A stretch of DNA of 47,544 bases from DHVE2 group archaeon. GTDB taxonomy: Archaea > Thermoplasmatota > Thermoplasmata > Thermoplasmatales > Aciduliprofundaceae. A model generated the notes under the pieces. The model was not told the origin of the DNA, did no database searches, and saw only the letters and a program-made list of their open reading frames with translations. Of this stretch, positions 5,236-43,888 are shown in pieces. The position numbers and the translations under genes were made by a program. Every line of letters begins with the position of its first letter. Within the stretch, counting starts at the first letter, position 1. The stretch covers positions 1 through 47,544 of the forward strand of contig WAOD01000056.1 of the NCBI GenBank assembly GCA_015521465.1, written 5' to 3'.

Positions 5236-6750
5236 TTATCCTTCCTCTTTGTAGCTTTCGCTGTATCTTTTTAGTGCCTGGACTATGTCTATGTCCCCAC
5301 CGCCTTCCTGGGTCTTTCTCTCTTTTATTTTCACAATTGCTGGCACGTTTACCACGGGTCCAACTATTATTGCCTCTCCTGGATTTAGATGGGGAAGCAG
5401 AGTGGAAAGGTCATCTCCAAGATTCTCAGCTGCAATTTTTACAGCGGTGATATCCTCGCTATTGTTCAATCTCATGACCACATAGCTATTTGCTTGTGAG
5501 AGTGCATCCGCATCTATTTTGTGAGGCCTCTGTGTAATCATTATGAGCATAACCCCGAATTTTCTCCCCTCTCCTGCAATTTTTTTCACTATGTCTTTTG
5601 ATTTTGAATATTGAGTGCCGGGTACGAAGTTATGTGCCTCTTCAATAACGATAAACACAGGTTCAATTTTCTTGGAGGTTGTGTTTTTCTCGTAAATCTT
5701 GGTTAAAAATATATTCGCTATTACTTCCTGGATATCGCTTTTGAGTCCCGAGAGGTCTAGAACGGATATTTGCTTGGGTTTTATTATTTGCTCCAGCGGT
5801 GTGGTTTCTTCCGAGAAAATTCCTGTTACCCCTCTTTTCTCAGCAAGAGCCAGATATCTCAATACGTTCTGGGCATCATCGTCTTTGTATGATTTGGGTG
5901 GTTTTTCGGAACCATTTGCCCAGCTCTCAATTTTTCCTTTCAAATCTTCGTAATTAATGCTGTCCTTAAAAGAATCTATGGCGGCGGATAATATGCCAAT
6001 CATCCTCTTGTAGTTTGAAGATATGCCAATTATGTTTGCTATTTCATCAGGCATCAAATCTTTAAGGGAGATGGTCAGCGGGGAGGTGTCCACATCGTCA
6101 AACCTGCTCACACTCATGGAATTTCTGAACACGGAAAACCTGTGTATTATAACATCTCCAGTCCTGCTCCTGTTCATTCTAACGTAATCAGCGTGAGGGT
6201 CAATGATTACTATGCTCGCTCCCTTATCGTAAAGCTCTTCAATTATAACGCCCGTGGTGTAGCTTTTTCCGCTTCCTGTCTGGCCAATAATTGCCATGTG
6301 CCTCAAAAAACCCTTTGGATTCAGATTTATGCTCACATCTTCTCTCGTCAATAATGTACCCACGTGAATTGGTAGCTCTCCAACGTGATAAAAATTGTCC
6401 AGCAGATCTTTGGATGCACGGTACACCTTTTCTCCAGGCATTGGTGGATTTCTCGGGAATTTAACACATCCATTGTCCAGATACCCTATTGTTTCTATTT
6501 CCGCGTAAATCTTGGGCACGTCAATATCCCTGCTCACTAACTTCATCAGGGAATCGTAAGTGGTTTCGTGGGTTAAAATCTCAGATAGTGCACCCATCAG
6601 CTCAACGCGTCCAACCACATCCCGCAAAACATCTCTTTCTCTAACTTTTGTTACCACATATTCGTTCTCCATTAGCTTTGTATCTTTTGGTAGGGCAATA
6701 ACGAATTTTCCTGTTTCCGTGTTTCCAACAACTATTCCTACTTCTTTCAT
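5236..6750 (-). CDS. herA: HerA-type DNA translocase/helicase
   Basis: HerA is a hexameric FtsK/HerA-superfamily ATPase that pumps DNA and works with NurA, Mre11 and Rad50 in resection of double-strand breaks. The N-terminal HAS barrel spans about residues 1-130. Walker A is GQTGSGKSY (near 158), followed by VIIDPHADY. Walker B lies in PVFIVIEEAHNF, and the ITQRPHKIDADALSQ segment is typical of the family. The gene follows nurA with a 4-nt ATGA overlap if the ATG at 6756 is used. The ATG at 6750 sits 6 nt after GAGGTGA, whereas the upstream one has no spacer, so I prefer 6750. The pair forms a classic archaeal herA-nurA operon; mre11 and rad50 are not in this window. Confidence 0.95.
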   Translation of the reverse strand: MKEVGIVVGNTETGKFVIALPKDTKLMENEYVVTKVRERDVLRDVVGRVELMGALSEILTHETTYDSLMKLVSRDIDVPKIYAEIETIGYLDNGCVKFPRNPPMPGEKVYRASKDLLDNFYHVGELPIHVGTLLTREDVSINLNPKGFLRHMAIIGQTGSGKSYTTGVIIEELYDKGASIVIIDPHADYVRMNRSRTGDVIIHRFSVFRNSMSVSRFDDVDTSPLTISLKDLMPDEIANIIGISSNYKRMIGILSAAIDSFKDSINYEDLKGKIESWANGSEKPPKSYKDDDAQNVLRYLALAEKRGVTGIFSEETTPLEQIIKPKQISVLDLSGLKSDIQEVIANIFLTKIYEKNTTSKKIEPVFIVIEEAHNFVPGTQYSKSKDIVKKIAGEGRKFGVMLIMITQRPHKIDADALSQANSYVVMRLNNSEDITAVKIAAENLGDDLSTLLPHLNPGEAIIVGPVVNVPAIVKIKERKTQEGGGDIDIVQALKRYSESYKEEG

Positions 6751-14309: not shown

Positions 14310-14328
14310 TTTTTTAGTTTTTATTTTT
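14310..14328. terminator. T-rich convergent gene end
   Basis: T runs (14310-14315, 14318-14322, 14324-14328) directly follow the radical SAM stop and overlap the end of the convergent GH5 gene. Confidence 0.4.
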
Positions 14329-16899
14329 AAGCTTTCTTATTACTGCCGTGCCTATCATCAGTAGGAGAACCATAGAGACGAGCGTCCCGCGAAATTCTGG
14401 TACGGTGTTTTGGTAAATTCCCACGTAGTCTATGTTAGCTCCAGTGTCCGTGGTGAATCCTATGTAGTCCGTGGAATCAAAGTATGGATAGTACGATATA
14501 TCTGCTGTTAAAATCAATATGCCGTCAATGTACACTTTCATTGTGTCTCCGCTGATGCTTATGTAGTAGGTGTTGAGTTCGAATGGCCTAAAAGATGTAT
14601 TGGCGTAGGATACATTGTGCTGCACTTTTCCATTTACCACGTAATATATCTCTGCAAATCCGTTATCGTGGAGGGTGAATCCAAGATAATTATCAAGGTT
14701 GGTATCATGTGCTTTCACAAATGTAATCCCGCTTGACCAGTTGCTTCCTGGTATCCCGTATCCCCTGTAACTCATTGAAAAATCGCTCCATTTGTCTTTT
14801 TCAAGAACAAGCGTATTTGTGCTCATTTCCATCATGCTATTTGAATTGCTAGCGCTGCCCTGTACCGTGCTCCAGTTTGCCATGGTGTTCATTTCGTCAT
14901 CTACCACGGTGTTTAGATTTGGATCATACACCTTTATTGAACTGTCGTATTCATCACCAAACCACTCCACGTGCTCACGGAGCATTCTCCAGGAGAAAGA
15001 GTATTTTCCCGGAACTGAAGGTGCGGTTATGTTGAACTTGAATGTGTATTCTTCTTCAGGATATATAGTTGTTGATGGATTCATATCCACTCTTCCCAGG
15101 CCCCAAATCTGATTATCTTGAGGTTGCTGAGAGCCAAGACGGTAATTGCGAGTGGCGTTCCAGTATGTATCTCCGGTATCGTTGTATGTTATGCTTACAC
15201 TTGCCGTTTCGCCGCAATTCATAGTTTCTGGATGGGATGAGGACACAAATTTGGCGTTGTTTATTAGTTGCGTTCCATTGAACTGGTCCCTGAATACTAC
15301 CCCGCTGGGTTTCAGGGTGTAATTTAATCTGTATAGTCCGAAGAAGTGCTGGGTGCTGTTTGGATCTGTGCTGTCCGGAATTCCCCCTGGAGAGAAATCG
15401 TTGAGAATCCAAATCATTGGATAAACGTTATTGTAGTTTTTCACGGTTGTTAAAACATTTGATAGCCAGGTCGCCACGGAACTTTCGTTGTAAGGGCAAT
15501 TAGTACCGGCGGTGGGCAAACCTATTTCTTCTATGAATATTGGCTTATCTGTGTGGTTTTCCAGGGCGTTGAAAACATACTTGAGCTCGCTGCTCTGCTC
15601 GTACCAGTGAAACATGGGAAAATCAACATCTTTGAATATGTCATCATCAATAATGGAGGGCCCCAATCTTACTTTGACATCATCAAATTCCGCTCCGGGG
15701 CAAGAAGCGTTTAATGCAATCCCTCCATATACGTTTCCGGATACGTTTATGGGATTCGGGTCCCAGTAGTACAGGTACTTTACTCCGTCAACGTAAACTT
15801 CTATGTCTTGCCTGAATGTAACTATCTTGAAATCGTGCCACTCTGTGCAGTTTAAAGTGGTGGATGTGGAATTTAGGTATCCTATGTGCGTACCATTCTG
15901 AACTTTGGCAAGCTCTAAAACTCCGTTAGTGTGGAGTATAAGCTCGTAAAAGTTTGACTGATTGGCGTACCTGAATTCAATGGTCGCTACATTCCAGTTA
16001 TTAGATCCAGGATTGCTCGTTCTCATCCTGAGTGATAGTGTGTATCCTGTTTTATCCCACCAAGATGTGTCGTTAATCTTAATTACTCCTTCATCTCCGT
16101 TCAAGTACCCTGAATTGGCGTTCCATGACCCACTTACCACTGTCCATCCATTGTATGTATCGTTATTAAATGTGTAGTTCACTGGATAGCTTACGGGCGT
16201 GTGCCTATCTCCAAGGTACCACCCGTACTCTCCAACGGTAACGAGGTGGTTTGGATCATCTTTCTTTACCTCGTTCAGTATGGTGTGAAGGTAATCCATC
16301 ACGAAGGGCTTTGACAGGTGTGGCCACCAGCTTTTGCTGTAATAAAAATGGTCTGGCTCGTTGCGCAGGTCCCAAGCGAAAATTCTCGGATCGCTCTTAA
16401 ATGCGCTTACTATTGTTCTTACCTGTGTTAGCTGAGCTGTCATGTTGTCCAGCGGGTTCTCCTTGTCAAGCAGGGTGACTATTGCCTTCATGTTGTACTT
16501 GTCCAGTATTGAAAGCATGGTGTTCAGCTTTGACAGATTTTGCCTGACTCTTGTGGCATTTCCTCCGCCGAACGCGTTGTATTGTATTATAATCCTCACC
16601 ACATTAACCCCAAGCGCCTTAGCCCTTGCCATGTCTGCATCAATTACCCCCTCTATTTTCGTAAAGTTTTCCCACATGTATCGCCATCCGTAATCCCGTG
16701 GGTAGTAATTTACTCCCTTTGGTATGAACACCTTCCCGTTTAGATAAAATTTGCCGTTAGATATTGTGACAAATGGATTAACATCCTTTGTTTCGGTGTT
16801 TCCATTGCTTTTTTCAATGTTGGTATTATGAACACTTCCCAATGAAGAGTATATTACCAGTGCAGCTATTAGTACTACCAATAAAGCAATTCCTCGCAT
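14314..16899 (-). CDS. Surface-anchored GH5-like glycoside hydrolase with inserted jelly-roll and NBR1-type Ig domain
   Basis: This 861-aa exported protein starts with a signal peptide or anchor (hydrophobic 3-20). A GH5-like barrel begins at GKVFIPKGVNYYPRD; the acid/base is E181 in DLRNEPDHF and the nucleophile is E457 or E458 in PIFIEEIGLP. Between them, residues 240-412 form a jelly-roll LamG/CBM-like domain inserted into the barrel. Residues 553-657 match the bacterial/archaeal NBR1-type Ig domain (WGLGRVDM, WRMLREHVEWFGD). A second jelly-roll spans 664-830. The C-terminus is VPEF, a hydrophobic span and a basic tail, resembling PEF-CTERM. Substrate is probably a beta-linked polysaccharide or glycan, not determinable here. 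CTTAAATATG upstream (minus strand) is centred 25 nt from the ATG, so the mRNA is likely leaderless. Confidence 0.85.
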   Translation of the reverse strand: MRGIALLVVLIAALVIYSSLGSVHNTNIEKSNGNTETKDVNPFVTISNGKFYLNGKVFIPKGVNYYPRDYGWRYMWENFTKIEGVIDADMARAKALGVNVVRIIIQYNAFGGGNATRVRQNLSKLNTMLSILDKYNMKAIVTLLDKENPLDNMTAQLTQVRTIVSAFKSDPRIFAWDLRNEPDHFYYSKSWWPHLSKPFVMDYLHTILNEVKKDDPNHLVTVGEYGWYLGDRHTPVSYPVNYTFNNDTYNGWTVVSGSWNANSGYLNGDEGVIKINDTSWWDKTGYTLSLRMRTSNPGSNNWNVATIEFRYANQSNFYELILHTNGVLELAKVQNGTHIGYLNSTSTTLNCTEWHDFKIVTFRQDIEVYVDGVKYLYYWDPNPINVSGNVYGGIALNASCPGAEFDDVKVRLGPSIIDDDIFKDVDFPMFHWYEQSSELKYVFNALENHTDKPIFIEEIGLPTAGTNCPYNESSVATWLSNVLTTVKNYNNVYPMIWILNDFSPGGIPDSTDPNSTQHFFGLYRLNYTLKPSGVVFRDQFNGTQLINNAKFVSSSHPETMNCGETASVSITYNDTGDTYWNATRNYRLGSQQPQDNQIWGLGRVDMNPSTTIYPEEEYTFKFNITAPSVPGKYSFSWRMLREHVEWFGDEYDSSIKVYDPNLNTVVDDEMNTMANWSTVQGSASNSNSMMEMSTNTLVLEKDKWSDFSMSYRGYGIPGSNWSSGITFVKAHDTNLDNYLGFTLHDNGFAEIYYVVNGKVQHNVSYANTSFRPFELNTYYISISGDTMKVYIDGILILTADISYYPYFDSTDYIGFTTDTGANIDYVGIYQNTVPEFRGTLVSMVLLLMIGTAVIRKLKNKN

Positions 16900-17082: not shown

Positions 17083-18273
17083 ATGGAGAGATATGCAGAG
17101 TATATATTAGGGCTGGATGTCGCAGCGGTTGTTTCATCTCTAATAATTTTCATATTCGGCAACTTAACCGTTGAAAGTGTTTTCTGGGTGGCCACCGAGC
17201 TCATATTTTCCCTTGGGGTGCTGTCCCTTGCATTCACCTTTTTGTATTTTACCAGAGTTGGTAAAAGCAACTGGCTGTTGATACCCTCACTGGTAATTCT
17301 CGGCATCGGTGTGATAATAACTTTTTTCAGCTGGTTTATAGGGGGATTGGTTTCCCTCGTGTCTCTGTTAATGTTGCTCTTTACAAAAGACCTTGATTAT
17401 AGGGAAATTCGGAGTCTAGTATTATCTTTTGTGGGATTTTCTATTCTATCTATTATGCCTCCTTTAAGTGTACTCTTTTCTTTTCACTTTGGGATATTGG
17501 ATGAGGTGGTAATTGCTATTGGTATAGTTCTTATTGCTGTGGGGATTTATCTTTCCCTGAGAACCAAAAAACCTGCCGAAGCAGCTAATGTTGGTTTTAT
17601 ACTTTTAAGCTTGTCATTTATGTTTATCGCACCTGCCCACGAGCTTCTTAACATACATTCAAATGGGAGCTATGGAATTTACGACATGTCAATAGTGTTC
17701 CTTTCCACTTTGACTTTCTTCATATACTTTGTCAATATGCTCATCGCTAAAATTGCGGAAGAAAAGGTATATCGTGACATAGAGAAAGGATGCAAATTAC
17801 TTGAAAGTGGCAAGTACAGGGAGGCTTACGAGCACCTTAAAAGGGCTTATGAAGTGTATCCTGACGATGAAAGAGTTCTCAACGGAATGGGAATTGCATT
17901 GATGAAAATGGGTAAGTACAATGAAAGCGAGGTTTATCTCAGAAAATTGAACAGGATTAAGCCAGGGGATAAGGTTTATATGACTAATTTGGGGAACCTG
18001 TATTTCAGAACCGGAAAAATGGATGAAGCTATGGAAACTTACAGTAAGGTTCTCAAGAAATATCCGGATTATTACAATGCACTTAACAATCTTGCAAGAT
18101 GCTACATGGAGAAGGGTGCATATGAAAAAGCGAGGGAACTTTTAGAAAAAGCCATAATAATAGATGAGGATAAAAAAGCCGCAAAGGTGAATTATTATTT
18201 CCTGCTAACAGCTCTTGGGATGTCTGAGGAGGCGAATAAATATAAATCACAGATAGGTGGGTTGGTAGAATGA
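17083..18273 (+). CDS. Polytopic membrane protein with C-terminal TPR domain
   Basis: This 396-aa protein has roughly seven hydrophobic membrane segments in residues 10-225 and a soluble region from 235 with about four TPR units (for example LLESGKYREAYEHLKRAYEVYP and NLGNLYFRTGKMDEAM). TPRs next to the last membrane segment would face one side and bind a partner. The next gene overlaps by 4 nt (ATGA), so the two proteins are translationally coupled and probably interact. TTAAAATA at 17053-17060 is centred 26 nt before the ATG with no Shine-Dalgarno, consistent with a leaderless mRNA. I do not recognise a named family; the function is unknown. Confidence 0.8.
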   Translation: MERYAEYILGLDVAAVVSSLIIFIFGNLTVESVFWVATELIFSLGVLSLAFTFLYFTRVGKSNWLLIPSLVILGIGVIITFFSWFIGGLVSLVSLLMLLFTKDLDYREIRSLVLSFVGFSILSIMPPLSVLFSFHFGILDEVVIAIGIVLIAVGIYLSLRTKKPAEAANVGFILLSLSFMFIAPAHELLNIHSNGSYGIYDMSIVFLSTLTFFIYFVNMLIAKIAEEKVYRDIEKGCKLLESGKYREAYEHLKRAYEVYPDDERVLNGMGIALMKMGKYNESEVYLRKLNRIKPGDKVYMTNLGNLYFRTGKMDEAMETYSKVLKKYPDYYNALNNLARCYMEKGAYEKARELLEKAIIIDEDKKAAKVNYYFLLTALGMSEEANKYKSQIGGLVE

Positions 18274-21200
18274 GCTTAGAATACGAAAAGTTACCATATA
18301 TTGGCAAAAAAAGAGCAAAAAAATTAAAAGAGGCGGGGATAGGTATTGAAGAAATTGCCAAGATGGATGAGGATGAGTTGAAAAAGCACATCCCCAGGAT
18401 TTCAAAGGGGAAGTTAAAGGTAATAATCGCGACAGCAAGGGAAATTATAGGAAAAGCTTATAACATTGCTGATTCCACGGGGATTGACAGGGAAAAAGCC
18501 CTTGTTTTGGCTCTGAACGATTACGATGTGGAGAGCATAGCTAAGGCGAAAAAGGAGGAGATAGCAAAACTTCTCGATATTTCTCAGGAGGATGCGTTTA
18601 ACATTATATTCAATGCAGCTCTAAAAACCGGAGTTAAAAAGCCACAGATAAAAATCAAAAAAGAACAGATTGACGGGAGTGGAATTGTCTCAAAGGAGGG
18701 GTTTATAAATGGATTTGGATTGAAATCGTTTAAGTCAGAAAAAATCGTTAAATTCAGAGTTGTTCCATTTATAATAATTGTTTTGCTGATTATTTCTGGC
18801 ATATCTGCAACTCTTTTCCTGATTTCACCGGGAATAAGGATAGATGGTAACTTTTCAGAGTGGAACGCAATTCCTGGCTACGAATTAGGGGGGTTACATT
18901 ACAAATACATGTGCCAAGGAGGGGCGTTATATTTTTATCTTCACAAGCAGTACTTGTTTTCAGAGCCAGAGAGGGTATATGTGATGGTGGATGACGGTGA
19001 GAATGAAGGGTATTATGTGAGTGGTATTAAGGCAACTTACGTGGCGGAATTTTACGGGTGGAATGATACTCTGAAGGGTGCGGTGCTGTGGAAACATTCA
19101 TCTTCGGAATATATGTGGAACTTTACGAAAACAGGTGGTATGCAATACGCATACGGTAAAAACAGCATAGAGTTCATGATTAATGGTATTAGAAAGAATG
19201 CAAAGGTGCTGGTTATAGAAAAGGCAAACACTACGCTGAAATCCGCGCCTTTGTTCGTGGATAAACCCACCGTGCAGGTGGAAATCACGACCGCAGGGGA
19301 TATAGCTAAGAATAACACGCCTTTGATGAATATATACATAAATTCGCCTGTGAAATTTGTTTTATCCAAGGTGGAGTTTGAATATGCAGGCGCAAGTATC
19401 ACTTCTGCTACCCTGAGTACAGAACACGGTAATTACTCCGGCTCATGTGTAAACGGCACTGTGATTTTCAAAGTGGATAAGAAAATATTGAAAGAGCAGA
19501 TGACTTTATATGCAAAATTAGCCGGTAACGAGAGTTCTCTCGTCACAATGGACGCCTCTATATATGCCAAGAGCTTGCCGGTATCCTACCTTCGAGAGGA
19601 GAAGAACATGTACCTCTTCAAAGCTCCTAACAGAGTGATAATAGATGGTGCTTTTGGAGACTGGAAAAACAGAGAATCAGATGTTATAATGGATGTTCAT
19701 GATGCCAATATAGACCTAGTTAATTATTCAAGAACCCCCGATTTCAAGGATGTGTACATGCAGGTCAGGGGGGAGTTTATGGGCGGGGATGATGTTCCCA
19801 TAGTGAGAGAGTGGGTGCCAAAGGATAGCGATAGGGACACGGTTCCGGACAAATACGATCCGTATCCCCACGATTTCAACAATGATGGTGTACCGGACAA
19901 CGAAAGTTACGTTGTAGTAAATGGCGAGAAATTGCCAGACGTGGATGGCGATGGAATTCCCGATTATCCTTATGGTCCGGACATGTGGCTCAATACCACC
20001 ATTCCTAATGATTTCCCAAAACCGTATGCAGGAAGGCACGTTAGCGTGTATATCGGGCCACCACCACCGGTACGACCGAAGAATGGAAACGACACCGCAG
20101 AGATTTATTTCGAAGATTTAAACATGAAGGAGAGTGCACATCTCCCCTGGGTGCCGTTTCCCGTAAATTACAAAATTACAATCACAGGTAGGGATGGAAT
20201 TTACAATGCGCATCTTTTCAAATTCACCGATGGAACATGGAAAAATTTAGGCACAGTATCCGATATAGCCTCCGGGTACCACGCGGTTGAGCTGAGCACG
20301 GGGTTAAACATCACCCGTGGGAAAATGTGGATTACCGTGTTTAACTGGAAACACGAGTACGATATGCCGTCAATAACCAAAGCAGGAGAGCGTTCTTCCA
20401 CATCCATGTACACCATGCATTTGCACGCTGATATTAATGAAGAGCCCGGCAACATGAACTGGACCGTGGGGAGCAGTGCTGAGACCATAAAATTGATAGC
20501 TAACTCTTTACCAATATTTAACACATATTCTTATGCATACGCTAACTGGGATTATGAACAACCTCTCTGTGAAAATCTTACGGTGAATCTCCCAGCGCTG
20601 TGGCTTCAGGTGGGTGATATCGAAAATGGCTCAGGAACGGACTATCTGAATATAAGCCTTATCGGGAAAAGCGGAAATACAAGACTATTGGTGGGATTCT
20701 GGAATAACTCCCTTCAAAGCGGTAAGCTCAAGGAAAATAGCCCTAATCTGATTCCATTGCAGGTGGTTCACAGCACCATTCCGAAGGGATACATAATGGC
20801 TTTAAATATTACATTCATGTCTGATTTTAATGCTGCTGAAAATGATTATATAAAGATAACTTACAACGGTTCGTCTATCACTTCTGACGATTCTTATCTC
20901 AGTTTCACTGCGAACGGGATAAGCATTACGGATTTATATACTGAAAATAATGGTACAAAGGTATCCAATTTCACGAAAGGGGATACCGTATCAATATTTG
21001 CAAATATAACTGACCCTCTGGGATTCCGGCACATAAACAGCAATGCGGTTAATGTCTCTGTTCGGGATGCTCTTGGCCATGTTATTCTATCAAATTCCAA
21101 GATGAGCGTGTACGCGAACACTTCCTGCTACGGCGTTTTTTACTTCAGCTTTGCCCTTGATGGAATAGTGATAGATAACACAAGCACGCTTTACGCCTTT

Positions 21201-22961
21201 GTTGGTAAGTACAATATAAGTGTTGAAGCGCAGAACAATGAGGCCACGCCGGAGCATGTGTCTATGAACGCTTCTTTCTGGGTAAACAGCAACGTTCGTC
21301 ATGCAGTTTCAAAGTGGTTGTTCGTGCCATCTGGAAAGTACCATGCGTGGTTCAGACACAGGATTGATAACACTGGAGATGGCGACGATGTGTACAATTT
21401 CCAGATTAACTCTAATGATGCACCTCCATTTGAGGTTTCGATATATCGGGATGTGGATAACAACAAAATCATTGATTCAAAGGATGTTCTTTACGCTGTT
21501 TACAATTCTACTAAGGGTGGATGGGTATATATCCGAAATGACACCGATAAAAATAACGAGCCGGATATAACGGTCATGCAGGGGGATAAAGTTAGATTTA
21601 TAATGCAGGTCAATCTATCTCTTAGCGATACTGAACCTGACTCTTACGTGAACATTACCATTTCTTCCTTTACAGGCAATTCTTCCTTCACCGTGCACGA
21701 TGAGGCAATTTTGAGGGCAAACGATAACAAGACTCTCTATTTGGGTGTGGGATCTTCTGAAAACACGCTTTATCCGGAGCTTGGGTCATCGGAGGGAGAA
21801 GAATCAAGGGTTACCTCTGCAAAATGGGTTCAGGAATCTACTTTCATAAATGATTTCACGCTCACTGGAAATATAACCGTGACCATGTATATATATACCC
21901 GCTTTGCTACAGCTGGAAATGTATCACTTTATATGGACGATGGCACATATATAGGGGGTGCGAATATTACGTTGGTTGATAGAGAAACAAAGGCATATAC
22001 CCTAAGCTTTGCTCCCGAAATATCGCTAATTCCTAAGGGACATGGCGTTTATCTTGTTTTCACTGCAGATAATGATTGCAACATTTACTTCAACACATCC
22101 ACGTATCCTTCTAAAATTAATTTCACCACCACCTCTTATATCTATGCCCAGAATGTGATTCTTTACAATGTCACGTCAGGTGGTAATTACGTGGAGCAGA
22201 GCAATTACTCTGCTGGTGATGAAATTCATGTGAGTACTAAGATAATAGAGCCGTTTGGAAGCTTCGATATAAAAAGCGTGAGCGCCGAAATATTAGCACC
22301 TGATGGTAGCTCCTCAAATTTGACTTTGGGGCTGGAAGAGGATCACACTTCACAGGGATATTACATATACGGTGCTGATTACTCGCTACCCGCAGATTCT
22401 TACGCAGGTACTTACTGGGTGAAAGTTACCGCTGAGGAGGGAAACGGTGTGATAAATTACACGTATACTTCGTTCAGCATTGCTTGCAATATTTCTATAT
22501 CTCCTCACAATAATGGAACAACTGGAACTACCGTGTGGTATTACCACGATATTTGGAACAACGGAAGCGGTACGGATATAATAACTCTGGAAGTCAGTTC
22601 CACCGCAACATCCAATATAACTCTTTATGTTTATGACAGCTCAAATTCACAGTGGGATTTGGTGGCGTACAGCAACACGGGTACTGGATGGAGCTGGGTA
22701 AACAGCAGTTACGATATAAATGATGATGGAAAGCCTGATTTTGTCGTGGGTGAGCACAGTTACGTAAGGATTAAGGTAAGAGTGATAAGCTCTGCCGATG
22801 TTAATACTACCCTTAGCGTGGATGATAGCGTACTTGGGAACTCGTGCAGTGATTCAGCAGTGGATTACACTAAAGTCCCCGAGTTGTCCGTATATATACT
22901 GCCTTTGGTTATTCCTGCATTAATGATTTTGCTCAGGAAGAAAAAAGGATATGTGCAATGA
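18270..22961 (+). CDS. 1563-aa surface protein with cytoplasmic helix-hairpin-helix head and VPEL-TM C-terminus
   Basis: Residues 5-60 form a helix-hairpin-helix unit (LPYIGKKRAKKLKEAGI, then ISKGKLKVIIATAREI) and residues 60-125 a possible second helical repeat. A transmembrane segment lies at about 163-187. Outside it, the long remainder has many N-glycosylation sequons and beta-rich repeats. Two copies of an IDGxFxxW motif occur (191-198 and near 455), as in CBM9/DOMON-like modules. Residues about 515-567 contain DxDxDxxPD-type calcium-binding repeats like thrombospondin type 3. The C-terminus is VPEL, a hydrophobic span and RKKK. The HhH fold usually binds DNA, so a cytoplasmic HhH on a surface protein is unexpected. 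It is coupled to the TPR membrane protein upstream. No function is known. Confidence 0.82.
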   Translation: MSLEYEKLPYIGKKRAKKLKEAGIGIEEIAKMDEDELKKHIPRISKGKLKVIIATAREIIGKAYNIADSTGIDREKALVLALNDYDVESIAKAKKEEIAKLLDISQEDAFNIIFNAALKTGVKKPQIKIKKEQIDGSGIVSKEGFINGFGLKSFKSEKIVKFRVVPFIIIVLLIISGISATLFLISPGIRIDGNFSEWNAIPGYELGGLHYKYMCQGGALYFYLHKQYLFSEPERVYVMVDDGENEGYYVSGIKATYVAEFYGWNDTLKGAVLWKHSSSEYMWNFTKTGGMQYAYGKNSIEFMINGIRKNAKVLVIEKANTTLKSAPLFVDKPTVQVEITTAGDIAKNNTPLMNIYINSPVKFVLSKVEFEYAGASITSATLSTEHGNYSGSCVNGTVIFKVDKKILKEQMTLYAKLAGNESSLVTMDASIYAKSLPVSYLREEKNMYLFKAPNRVIIDGAFGDWKNRESDVIMDVHDANIDLVNYSRTPDFKDVYMQVRGEFMGGDDVPIVREWVPKDSDRDTVPDKYDPYPHDFNNDGVPDNESYVVVNGEKLPDVDGDGIPDYPYGPDMWLNTTIPNDFPKPYAGRHVSVYIGPPPPVRPKNGNDTAEIYFEDLNMKESAHLPWVPFPVNYKITITGRDGIYNAHLFKFTDGTWKNLGTVSDIASGYHAVELSTGLNITRGKMWITVFNWKHEYDMPSITKAGERSSTSMYTMHLHADINEEPGNMNWTVGSSAETIKLIANSLPIFNTYSYAYANWDYEQPLCENLTVNLPALWLQVGDIENGSGTDYLNISLIGKSGNTRLLVGFWNNSLQSGKLKENSPNLIPLQVVHSTIPKGYIMALNITFMSDFNAAENDYIKITYNGSSITSDDSYLSFTANGISITDLYTENNGTKVSNFTKGDTVSIFANITDPLGFRHINSNAVNVSVRDALGHVILSNSKMSVYANTSCYGVFYFSFALDGIVIDNTSTLYAFVGKYNISVEAQNNEATPEHVSMNASFWVNSNVRHAVSKWLFVPSGKYHAWFRHRIDNTGDGDDVYNFQINSNDAPPFEVSIYRDVDNNKIIDSKDVLYAVYNSTKGGWVYIRNDTDKNNEPDITVMQGDKVRFIMQVNLSLSDTEPDSYVNITISSFTGNSSFTVHDEAILRANDNKTLYLGVGSSENTLYPELGSSEGEESRVTSAKWVQESTFINDFTLTGNITVTMYIYTRFATAGNVSLYMDDGTYIGGANITLVDRETKAYTLSFAPEISLIPKGHGVYLVFTADNDCNIYFNTSTYPSKINFTTTSYIYAQNVILYNVTSGGNYVEQSNYSAGDEIHVSTKIIEPFGSFDIKSVSAEILAPDGSSSNLTLGLEEDHTSQGYYIYGADYSLPADSYAGTYWVKVTAEEGNGVINYTYTSFSIACNISISPHNNGTTGTTVWYYHDIWNNGSGTDIITLEVSSTATSNITLYVYDSSNSQWDLVAYSNTGTGWSWVNSSYDINDDGKPDFVVGEHSYVRIKVRVISSADVNTTLSVDDSVLGNSCSDSAVDYTKVPELSVYILPLVIPALMILLRKKKGYVQ

Positions 22962-31480: not shown

Positions 31481-31703
31481 GATAGTGGATAATGAAACTG
31501 CGGATTTAAAGATTTTCTAAAAATCAGGCTTGGCACCGTATTTAAAAATTTGTATTTTCATTAAAATTTTTATTTTTAAAATACGACCAATGATAACATA
31601 TATCACGGCAAAATTTTCAAAATACGCCTTGATTTTAGCGAAATGTTTAAGTATTGGTGGTGGTATATATCACATGCCCAATCGGGCAGGAGGACTGAAC
31701 AAA

Positions 31704-32192
31704 ATGAAGAAGATATATAATAAGAAGGAAGAAGGCGTGAGCCCCGTAATCGCTACCATCCTGATGGTGGCAATTACGGTAGTGCTGGCAGCGACCGTGT
31801 ACATAATGGTCGCAGGAATGGGAACAGGCGGAACGAACAAGATGATTGCGAGTTTGACTTATGACCAGCAGCAGTCTAACCCAAGTAATGGACCCGTTTA
31901 TTTGAGGATTGCTATGAGCAATCCGACCAGTGCTGCCTTTTCCAAGGTTACTGTTGTGCTCACACCTGCAACTGGTGCTGGAGGTAAAACTACGTTGAAT
32001 ACAACAGGAGGAGGCACTATTACCGTAGGAGGTAACACATACACCGTAAGTGTGCAGGATCTGGATGGAAATGGGCAGCTATCCGATGGGGATATGCTCG
32101 TGATATCTGGTGGCTCTCTCAGTGGATATACTGTGTCCGTTAGTATCTCTGGATATTCTGGAAATGCACAGACAACTATACCAAGCCAGTAA
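31704..32192 (+). CDS. Archaeal type IV pilin-like protein 1 with EF-hand-like loop
   Basis: The 162-aa product has the archaeal pilin/flagellin N-terminus, KKEEG followed by VSPVIATILMVAITVVLA, where a class III prepilin peptidase would cut near the glycine so that the hydrophobic helix forms the pilus core. The reading frame extends upstream to 31530, but AGGAGG 10 nt before ATG 31704 and the family N-terminus decide for 31704. A 12-residue loop DLDGNGQLSDGD (32058-32093) matches the EF-hand/dockerin calcium-binding pattern. The rest is a Thr/Ser/Gly-rich beta domain. TTTAAGTA near 31645 and TATATA near 31664 are possible TATA boxes. First of four tandem paralogues. Confidence 0.88.
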   Translation: MKKIYNKKEEGVSPVIATILMVAITVVLAATVYIMVAGMGTGGTNKMIASLTYDQQQSNPSNGPVYLRIAMSNPTSAAFSKVTVVLTPATGAGGKTTLNTTGGGTITVGGNTYTVSVQDLDGNGQLSDGDMLVISGGSLSGYTVSVSISGYSGNAQTTIPSQ

Positions 32193-32207
32193 TCACAACT
32201 TCTACCA

Positions 32208-32220
32208 TTTTTTATTTTTT
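32208..32220 (+). terminator. Oligo-T terminator after pilin 1
   Basis: Two T6 runs follow the stop of pilin gene 1 by about 15 bp, typical of archaeal intrinsic termination; some read-through to pilin 2 is possible. Confidence 0.5.
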
Positions 32221-32233
32221 GGGGTGTTTTTAA

Positions 32234-32749
32234 ATGGTAAGTGAGGAGGGCGTTAGTCCCGTGATTGCCACAATTTTGATGGTTGCCATAACGGTGGTTT
32301 TAGCTGCCACGCTGTACGTTATGGTGAGCACCAACATGCTGGGGGGAACCGCGACCACGGCTAAAGTGACGGGAAGCCTTACCGAAATTCCGCGCTCTTC
32401 TTTTGCCCGTAGCGTGAATTTCACGGTGACCATGACAATCCCGGAAAAAGCCGCCTGCAGCAACGTCAGGATTGTGGTCGTGTTGAATAATACAGTTACC
32501 GCTTTGAAGTACGACGGAGAAAAAGGCATATGGACTAACGCGACCTCGGGTGGGAAGTGGCACTTTGAAGCCAGGCTGGACGACCTGGACGGAAACGGTG
32601 AGTTCAGTGATGGGGACAAGTTATGCGTGTGTATCGTTGATGATAACCCTGCCGATTCCACGATTCCTCCTGTGTTTCATACCGGTGACCAGGTTTTGTT
32701 CAGCATAGTTGGATACCACGGCACGGCCAGCGGTGTGATACAACTTTAA
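32234..32749 (+). CDS. Archaeal type IV pilin-like protein 2 with EF-hand-like loop
   Basis: This 171-aa protein has a short leader MVSEEG and then VSPVIATILMVAITVVLA, identical to pilin 1 in this segment, so both should be processed by the same peptidase and may assemble together. The loop DLDGNGEFSDGD (32582-32617) again fits a calcium-binding EF-hand loop and is followed by a CVC motif. The C-terminal half ends GDQVLFSIVGYHGTASGVIQL-like strands shared with paralogues 3 and 4. GGGGTG precedes the ATG. A T-rich tract follows the stop. Confidence 0.87.
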   Translation: MVSEEGVSPVIATILMVAITVVLAATLYVMVSTNMLGGTATTAKVTGSLTEIPRSSFARSVNFTVTMTIPEKAACSNVRIVVVLNNTVTALKYDGEKGIWTNATSGGKWHFEARLDDLDGNGEFSDGDKLCVCIVDDNPADSTIPPVFHTGDQVLFSIVGYHGTASGVIQL

Positions 32750-32753
32750 CCCC

Positions 32754-32764
32754 TTTTATTTTTT
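32754..32764 (+). terminator. Oligo-T tract after pilin 2
   Basis: T4-A-T6 directly after the pilin 2 stop codon, a likely transcript end. Confidence 0.45.
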
Positions 32765-32830
32765 GAGCGGATGAGCAGGGCGATGATTTTATATATTGTT
32801 TTTTCTATACATGCAAGTGGGGGTGTGAGT

Positions 32831-33304
32831 ATGAAAAGTTCCACGGTTATAGCTCTGGTAGTTTTCGCTGTGATTTTTGGGTTGTTGGTTGCGGCAATTG
32901 CATATTTGAGCATGGTTCCTGTTGGGGGATGTAACTGTCGGAAAATAAAAGGAAGTCTGGATGAAATATCTGTATCTGGGGATAACCGCACGGTGAAATT
33001 CGAGATTCACCTCAAATATCCTGAGAAAGTGACTAACTGGACTGACCTGGTAATAACACTCAACATATCCGGTCATTATTTTGGATATCAGTACCCCGGC
33101 CCTCAAAAAACATGGGTTAAGGGGAATTACACCGCTAAAATTTACGACATCAACGGCGATGGTGCTATCGATTCCGGAGATTATCTCGTAATCCATTCCA
33201 GTGGTGCCCCGTTCAAAACCGGCGATGGAGTAATGATTTACGTTACTGGGTCTGGGATTTGCAGCAATATATATGCGCCTGTATCTCTGGGGGAGATTAA
33301 ATGA
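32831..33304 (+). CDS. Divergent pilin-like protein 3 with CxC and EF-hand-like loop
   Basis: The frame opens at 32771, but GGTGT-GAGT-ATG supports the start at 32831, giving 157 aa (MKSSTVIALVVFAVIFG). It keeps the N-terminal hydrophobic helix but lacks the GVSPV processing motif. A CNC motif follows the helix (GGCNCRKIKGSL). The later domain parallels pilins 1 and 2, with loop DINGDGAIDSGD (33146-33181) and FKTGDGVMIYV. It is probably a minor or accessory pilin or a membrane-anchored partner. Its stop overlaps the start of gene 4 (ATGA), so the two are coupled. Confidence 0.78.
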   Translation: MKSSTVIALVVFAVIFGLLVAAIAYLSMVPVGGCNCRKIKGSLDEISVSGDNRTVKFEIHLKYPEKVTNWTDLVITLNISGHYFGYQYPGPQKTWVKGNYTAKIYDINGDGAIDSGDYLVIHSSGAPFKTGDGVMIYVTGSGICSNIYAPVSLGEIK

Positions 33305-33759
33305 GTAAATTCCCGAAAATTTTAGTTCCATTTGCTATTATAATAGCCATAGTGGTTCTGACTGTGACGGTGTACATCATGGTTGCAGGCGTTGGTGGTT
33401 GTCCGTGCAATTTCGTGAATGGAAGGTTGACGCAACACTTCATATCTGAAGGCGGAAAAACGGTGGAGTTCGAGATAACCCTCAACAACCCATATCAAGT
33501 TACCAATATGAGCTGGATAACCATACTGGTTAACTCCAGCGGAAATGTGGAAGCATTGAAATACAATTCCACGAAAAACATATGGGCATCTGAAAATTAC
33601 ACCGCAAAAATCATTGACAAGAATAACAACAGCGCTTTAGATTCCGGAGATTTCTTGGTTGTGCGAGCTCTCTTCAAAAAATTCAAGAGCGGTGATGTTA
33701 TTGGAATGCGCATTCTTGGATATGGGCGCGAGATATGGTCTCCAGTTCGCCTGCCGTAA
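33301..33759 (+). CDS. Divergent pilin-like protein 4 with CxC and degenerate EF-hand-like loop
   Basis: This 152-aa paralogue of gene 3 starts with MSKFPKILVPFAIIIAIVV, then TVYIMVAGVGG as in pilin 1, and CPC right after the helix. The loop DKNNNSALDSGD (33616-33651) keeps the first and last aspartates but has lost the central glycine, so metal binding may be weaker. The C-terminus repeats FKSGDVIGMRILGYG and ends SPVRLP, similar to SPVSL in gene 3. GGGGGAGAT upstream acts as ribosome site inside the end of gene 3. Function is inferred from paralogy only. Confidence 0.78.
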   Translation: MSKFPKILVPFAIIIAIVVLTVTVYIMVAGVGGCPCNFVNGRLTQHFISEGGKTVEFEITLNNPYQVTNMSWITILVNSSGNVEALKYNSTKNIWASENYTAKIIDKNNNSALDSGDFLVVRALFKKFKSGDVIGMRILGYGREIWSPVRLP

Positions 33760-40274: not shown

Positions 40275-42408
<2,134 letters not shown>

Positions 42409-42445: not shown

Positions 42446-43888
42446 ATGGGAATTTCAAAATATGCTTGGATGCTATCTTTGGTGATAATTTTCGCCCTGT
42501 TTTTATCAATGTTTCACTATTCCTCTGCAAATGTTATCAGAGCAGTTACTGATGATGGTTTGAGTATTGTTCCCGTGGAAAACTATGGCTACGCTCCCAT
42601 TGTTAAGCATCTTATTGATAACGCCACATCATCAATTTTTATCTCGATGAACGTTATAAGTGACTATGAGCCCGTGAAAACACTTCTCAATTCTTTAATC
42701 GCTGCGAAAAATCGTGGGGTGGATGTTCGTGTTCTCTTTGAAGGAGAGATATCTTCAAACTGGTACGCTGTGAATTATCTAAGGGAGCAGGGGGTAAACG
42801 TTAAAAACGATTCGTCTAACACTTTTCTTCACACCAAGATGGTCGTAATCGATGGAAAAGTTGTGTACGTAGGTTCTCATAACTGGAGCCCTTACGCTCT
42901 GGGCAAGAACAACGAGTTTGGCGTGTTTATATTTAATTCCACCATTGCAGAATTCTACATTTCGTATTTCAATTCATTATGGAATGATGCCAATGCTACA
43001 CCGGAAATAGGGGAAGTTAGTGAATCCGCTGGCAACTTGAGCGTGGAGACCACTTATGATGGTTACACCTATTCCTCTCTTTACAATCTGATTGCATCGG
43101 CGAGAGATAGGTTGTACGTTGGACTATACACTATGGCTTATTACTCTGAGCCAAATTCCACGGAATCTCGTGTGGATAACCTGATTGATGAAGTTGTTGA
43201 TAAGGAGAGCATAGCGAAGGTGATTTTGGATGACCATGACAGTGAAAACGCTTACAACTATCTTGAAAATAGTGGGGTGGATGTGATTTACGATTCTTCA
43301 TCAACCATAACCCACCTGAAAATGGTAATCTCCGATGATTCTGTGTACATAGGGGACGCCAACTGGGGTTACCAGTACCTTGATAATGAGACGCACACTG
43401 TTGGTGTAATTATCCACAATGCCAGCGTTGCAAACTTCTTTGCAGGGTACTTTAACACTATTTACAAGTATGGAGACGCGCCGTATTATATTCCAGATGG
43501 TTTTATTGAGAACTGGAGTTATTCTGCTCTTCCGAGAGATAGTGTAAAAATTAATGTGTATCTGGCTAATGGCGGTGCGAAGAACAACACATATTTTCAC
43601 ATAATTCCACATGGTCCCCTATACGTATCCCTCAATGAAACCCCATCCTGGAACCGCACCAGCGTTTATGACTGGCGCAATGAAACCGCTGTAGTAACCA
43701 TTCCAAGTGATGCTCAGGGGAATTACACAATATCCCTTACTTTTTACTCGACGTATTATCACATAAACTATACCATGTACCTTGTAATTCATGTAGGAAG
43801 GGTGGTGCCTGAGCTAAATCCTGTTTTATTGGTGGTATTCTTGATTATTGTTCCCGTTGCTCTTCGCAATCGACTCAATTGTGGATGA
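42446..43888 (+). CDS. Exported phospholipase D-family protein with VPEL-TM C-terminus
   Basis: This 480-aa protein has an N-terminal hydrophobic signal or anchor (7-28). Two PLD half-sites follow: H129-x-K131-x4-D136 with GSHNWS, and H290-x-K292-x4-D297 with GDANWG, so both catalytic HKD motifs are intact. A beta domain (about 345-445) with sequons precedes VPEL, a hydrophobic span and a short basic end. It should act outside the membrane on phosphodiesters; substrates may be phospholipid or DNA. TTTATGTC at 42417-42424 is centred 25 nt before the ATG with no Shine-Dalgarno, so the mRNA is likely leaderless. The 3' end overlaps the convergent MFS gene by 14 bp. Confidence 0.87.
   Translation: MGISKYAWMLSLVIIFALFLSMFHYSSANVIRAVTDDGLSIVPVENYGYAPIVKHLIDNATSSIFISMNVISDYEPVKTLLNSLIAAKNRGVDVRVLFEGEISSNWYAVNYLREQGVNVKNDSSNTFLHTKMVVIDGKVVYVGSHNWSPYALGKNNEFGVFIFNSTIAEFYISYFNSLWNDANATPEIGEVSESAGNLSVETTYDGYTYSSLYNLIASARDRLYVGLYTMAYYSEPNSTESRVDNLIDEVVDKESIAKVILDDHDSENAYNYLENSGVDVIYDSSSTITHLKMVISDDSVYIGDANWGYQYLDNETHTVGVIIHNASVANFFAGYFNTIYKYGDAPYYIPDGFIENWSYSALPRDSVKINVYLANGGAKNNTYFHIIPHGPLYVSLNETPSWNRTSVYDWRNETAVVTIPSDAQGNYTISLTFYSTYYHINYTMYLVIHVGRVVPELNPVLLVVFLIIVPVALRNRLNCG

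Follow-up and report, generated by a model that had tools for sequence, protein, structure and literature searches.

Bacterial exosortase/PEP-CTERM systems, which are found in Gram-negative hosts and use a PEP motif, are associated with glycan genes. In archaea, a comparison is offered by ArtA of Haloferax volcanii, whose PGF-CTERM substrates carry a tripartite tail and are cut and then lipid-anchored at the C-terminus (PMC7157517). A second archaeal enzyme, ArtC, is reported to recognise PEF-CTERM, according to a passage of PMC5244752 that cites Haft et al. 2012. Here we compare with these systems a stretch of 47,544 nucleotides (the window), which is contig C56 of an archaeal metagenome-assembled genome (MAG; G000) of the DHVE2/Aciduliprofundum family, of 1.5 Mb in 108 contigs, that is 96% complete. 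The original prediction was that three otherwise unrelated surface proteins of the window end in a VPE[FL] motif, a hydrophobic span and a basic end resembling PEF-CTERM. The closest relative of this genome, G007, served as the reference for orthologue pairs and synteny. The sequence compared came from regions surrounding the tails and the enzyme locus. The three proteins and their tails are the following:

14314–16899, minus strand: 861-aa exported protein with an N-terminal signal or anchor (residues 3–21), a GH5 mannanase-like region, a laminin-G/3-keto-disaccharide-hydrolase-like domain, an Ig-like domain and the C-terminal tail.
14317–14403, minus strand: tail of the 861-aa protein, TVPEFRGTLVSMVLLLMIGTAVIRKLKNKN, with VPEF at 14392–14403, a membrane span and RKLKNKN; VPEF is kept in the G007 orthologue (L071).
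18270–22961, plus strand: 1563-aa protein with an N-terminal HHH_5 domain, a membrane span (residues 167–185), a very large ectodomain and the C-terminal tail.
22875–22958, plus strand: tail of the 1563-aa protein, KVPELSVYILPLVIPALMILLRKKKGYVQ, with VPEL at 22875–22886, a membrane span and RKKKGYVQ; the G007 orthologue (L063) differs at the last residue alone.
42446–43888, plus strand: 480-aa exported phospholipase-D-family (PLD) protein with an N-terminal signal or anchor (residues 6–24) and two PLDc_2 domains.
43805–43885, plus strand: tail of the PLD protein, VVPELNPVLLVVFLIIVPVALRNRLNCG, with VPEL at 43805–43816, a membrane span and RNRLNCG; the orthologues have VPEL in G007 (L072) and VPEF in G011 (L082) and G013 (L086).

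All three tails lie in frame at the gene ends, with the V of the motif 29, 28 and 27 residues from the C-terminus in the 861-aa, the 1563-aa and the PLD protein, respectively. Sequence comparison found no mutual similarity among the three proteins, as had been claimed. Among the 39 window proteins, VPE[FL] is present four times; the fourth copy is internal, in a radical-SAM protein (at residue 239, 135 residues before the end). The composition of the window predicts 0.008 such C-terminal placements by chance in 39 genes, and 0.32 in a set of about 1600.

The description of all three proteins as exported holds for the 861-aa and the PLD protein. The 1563-aa protein, however, has no classical signal peptide; the approximately 165 residues before its first span, which include the HHH_5 domain, are presumably cytosolic, and the protein is bitopic rather than plainly exported. 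It is a paralogue of a 1640-aa tail protein on another contig of the same genome (G000:C32, L033; 29% over 1528 aa). The GH5 label of the 861-aa protein found no match in Pfam and is weakly supported by a phmmer match to GH5-type beta-mannanases among PDB sequences (1.5e-5). Judged by the PLD protein, the closest named relatives are two DHVE2-group MAGs (95% and 78% identity).

Several neighbouring genes were also noted in the window. The 1563-aa gene is preceded by one for a 396-aa protein that has TPR repeats and about seven membrane spans; the two overlap by 4 bases (17083–22961) and, because of this overlap, are probably co-transcribed. Four small consecutive proteins with N-terminal hydrophobic spans are encoded at 31530–33759; one starts pilin-like (MVSEEGVSPVIATILMVAITVVLAATLYV), and their C-terminal ends are related and rich in D-x-D/N-G motifs. 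A single gene for 531 aa lies at 40275–41870, and its two ends read, by eye, like a Kae1 and Bud32 fusion.

The tails are not confined to the window. A DNA-level search of this genome for VPE[FL] shortly before a stop gave 65 matches, against 27 for the reversed control, and inspection identified 14 of the matches as true protein C-termini, all with a hydrophobic span and nearly all with a clearly basic end. Profile searches added four variants (TPEF twice, IPEM and IPEL), giving at least 18 tailed proteins, and the genome-wide family that had been foreseen is thereby borne out. Thirteen of the 14 VPE[FL] proteins have no hydrophobic spans besides an N-proximal one and that of the tail, and the same fraction shows the tripartite PEF-CTERM form with motif, single span, basic end and N-terminal signal or anchor. 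The 14th is a 98-aa fragment, an open frame at 6032–6328 of L038 (G000:C91). Its tail is almost the same as the one on a 1257-aa G004 protein, and the frame resembles the terminal part of a longer gene that a frameshift or an assembly error has interrupted. The tailed proteins belong to several unrelated families, though some are homologous to each other; PEF-CTERM, too, is borne by multiple unrelated proteins per genome.

The distribution of the tails was then assessed in 18 genomes of the DHVE2/Aciduliprofundum archaeal family and in other families of the order. Since a DNA-pattern scan across 41 genomes was too noisy, tail counts were taken from profile searches. Tails were found in all 18 family genomes (3–28 each), and in the other families few or none; the median was 12.5 in the family and 1 in its order-mates (p=2e-7), an enrichment that is confounded by ancestry. 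As a separate observation, three large tailed proteins (1257, 1232 and at least 976 aa) are encoded in tandem in G004 (L091; G004:C29:73000-85500).

We searched for the archaeosortase that the original prediction implied. PF09721 and TIGR04178 gave no usable match in the genome of the window; a weak TIGR04178 match on contig C57 (E=0.72, containing a stop) was judged to be noise, as were weak matches in G008. PF09721 was not relied on alone, as it matched one control genome only, and not Haloferax. It nevertheless finds an archaeosortase in six other genomes of the family. The enzymes of G011 (a single-contig genome of 1,486,778 bp) and G017 pass the archaeosortase C (ArtC) model TIGR03762 with 361 and 341 bits (cut-off 100), and that of G015 aligns with them. 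The enzymes of G007, G013 and G009 stay below this cut-off (62.2, 63 and 50 bits) and are referred to here as ArtC-like; they pass the general signature TIGR04178 (G007 with 48 bits, cut-off 23). The motifs CSG, NV[LI]R and H-x-x-LGN are common to all six. The G007 enzyme is intact (315 aa) and has CSG, NVLR and HQWLGN, conserving Cys, Arg and His. A search of PDB sequences with the enzyme found no relatives.

A lineage-specific HMM built from the six enzymes gave a match in the genome of the window (C87:3385-3519, E=2.6e-8), corresponding to residues 1–44 encoded by an archaeosortase-C-like gene. The contig is 3,519 bases long and its end falls inside this gene; 38 of the 44 residues are identical to G007, and the catalytic residues lie beyond the assembled part. 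The contig is colinear with G007:C25:87551-91069 (87% DNA identity). Beyond this point the G007 island continues for 7.6 kb, which carry the remainder of the enzyme gene, genes for a flippase-like and a large membrane protein, and others that look glycosyltransferase-like by eye; this part has no other match in the G000 assembly. Because the contig ends inside the gene, is colinear with G007 and is followed there by an island whose rest is unmatched, we conclude that the enzyme gene is present in this genome and hidden by an assembly gap. The original prediction had staked itself on an archaeosortase homologue and on further proteins with the motif in this genome, and both were found, the former as the start of its gene.

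In the Aciduliprofundum-like genus, ArtC and the diverged ArtC-like enzyme have the same setting in different genomes, with a coiled-coil protein on one side and a flippase-like protein on the other (L043, L045, L047, L048), which suggests that one enzyme type replaced the other at the same site.

Compared with ArtC/PEF-CTERM, the present system has the same tripartite tail with PE[FL], the same enzyme motifs (CSG, NVxR, H..LGN) and a flippase neighbour; bona fide ArtC and passing tails occur in Aciduliprofundum-type sister genomes of the family, and in one genus ArtC has the same neighbours. It differs in the scores and in the last residue of the motif, where L is as common as F. Whereas five of six scanned G011 tails pass the PEF-CTERM model TIGR03024 (cut-off 23 bits), including one VPEL tail and the PLD orthologue, none of the 14 VPE[FL] tails of G000 does (best 20.4), nor any of the three in the window. 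The predicted likeness to PEF-CTERM was therefore right in kind, but the tails of this genome and the enzyme of its closest relative miss curated cut-offs that their relatives pass. Because of this, both tail and enzyme are, judged from sequence, diverged from the curated models, and we describe them as a diverged ArtC/PEF-CTERM system of a known kind. ArtA/PGF-CTERM follows the same logic, with a tripartite tail that is cut and joined to a lipid, but uses PGF instead of PE[FL]; moreover, ArtC is the best-scoring model for the enzymes of this family, and ArtA is absent among the matches listed. PEFG-CTERM (TIGR04296) shares the PEF core and was the only match of the window GH5-like tail, but at 16.3 bits it stayed below the cut-off of 25 and has no other support. 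With the bacterial exosortases, the system shares the enzyme superfamily, as indicated by TIGR04178.

Taken together, the three tails are likely to act as sorting signals at the C-terminus for a single archaeosortase system of the ArtC kind, by which the proteins would be cut and joined to an acceptor. In such a system, the N-terminal signal or anchor would carry the proteins across the membrane until transfer is stopped by the hydrophobic span and basic end at the C-terminus. The ArtC-like membrane enzyme (Cys-Arg-His), most likely the partner of these substrates, would recognise [VIT]PE[FL] at the outer face and cut there. The most likely acceptor for the new C-terminus would be a lipid of the membrane or a glycan-linked molecule; it is by analogy with Haloferax ArtA that we propose a cut at PE[FL] and transfer to such a lipid. 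For the 1563-aa protein, the N-terminal span would still hold the protein after cleavage, and its tail may therefore serve a purpose other than first anchoring.

Alternatively, the tails could be plain C-terminal membrane anchors in which PE[FL] marks a membrane boundary or a turn and is cut by no enzyme. Each tail is indeed a good single span with a positive-inside end, and genomes without a detected archaeosortase still keep 3–28 tails. However, a plain anchor gives no reason for unrelated proteins to share an invariant Pro-Glu at one fixed position, and PE is held while the span drifts. This was measured as codon changes in 15 orthologue pairs of G000 and G007 (Fisher test): the 30 PE codons showed 6 synonymous and no amino-acid changes, whereas the 14 codons after the motif (210 in total) showed 28 synonymous and 45 amino-acid changes (p=0.005). 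Conservation of the PE codons did not differ significantly from that of 20 upstream codons in the same pairs (p=0.33). In addition, tails that pass the PEF-CTERM model co-occur with ArtC proper, and G000 has the start of the enzyme. We therefore regard uncut anchors as unlikely.

The flanking positions of the motif are less strict. In these pairs V was replaced by I twice and L and F were swapped once, indicating that V/I and L/F are interchangeable. The L variant that had been suggested is thus real, but it does not stand outside the family, since L and F interchange between orthologues and the G011 VPEL tail passes TIGR03024. The last residue of the motif was L in 28, F in 25 and M in 1 case in genomes with the ArtC-like enzyme, and L in 5 and F in about 24 cases in genomes with ArtC (Fisher p=0.002; tallied by hand, with orthologues that are not independent). 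That L is rarer with ArtC proper and about equal to F with the ArtC-like enzyme is only suggestive.

Returning to the archaeosortase reading, tails and enzyme were found together in 7 of the 18 family genomes (in one as the fragment), and the 11 less complete ones have tails only. Detection of the enzyme tracks completeness (p=0.0007), and the gene is present in all five genomes that are at least 99% complete, which suggests that the glycan island drops out of assemblies. Independent random MAG loss across all 11 enzyme-less genomes would have a probability of about 1e-9. Since detection tracks assembly quality, and since in G000 the contig stops within the gene and the island is otherwise absent, loss of the gene from assemblies is probably not random.

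Two genomes stand out. In G003 (93% complete) and G004 (95%), three models did not find an archaeosortase, despite 28 and 26 tail matches, and the enzyme gene is not next to the syntenic flank, which is present in both. In these lineages the enzyme may lie at another location, or another enzyme may be used. We hold it rather unlikely that some members of the genus retain a complete set of PE[FL]-tailed surface proteins without any archaeosortase, the tail being handled by a different, undescribed enzyme or by none. A broader version, in which the tails are processed by an enzyme with no relation, or only a very remote one, to archaeosortases while the ArtC-like gene has another role in the glycan island, could draw on these two genomes and on the improbability of random loss in 11. 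It is nevertheless quite unlikely, given the dependence of detection on assembly quality and the broken G000 contig, and no candidate for such an enzyme was found. That the likeness is not a signal but arose by chance or through common descent of the C-termini is practically negligible: some of the 14 proteins are mutually homologous, but 14 observed against 0.32 expected genome-wide refute it, and the lack of similarity among the three window proteins speaks against it.

With sorting by an ArtC-kind archaeosortase as the preferred reading, these results warn that an assembly gap can make a MAG seem to have "no archaeosortase"; PF09721 and TIGR04178 alone would have wrongly suggested a tail family without an enzyme in this genome. 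Likewise, curated models miss the whole tail set in part of the archaeal family. The occurrence of ArtC and ArtC-like enzymes between the same neighbours, together with differing use of L and F, in one genus makes co-evolution of motif and enzyme testable. For the DHVE2/Aciduliprofundum family, about 10–20 surface proteins per genome, including GH5-like, PLD, repeat-rich and giant bitopic proteins, thereby share one probable route of anchoring.
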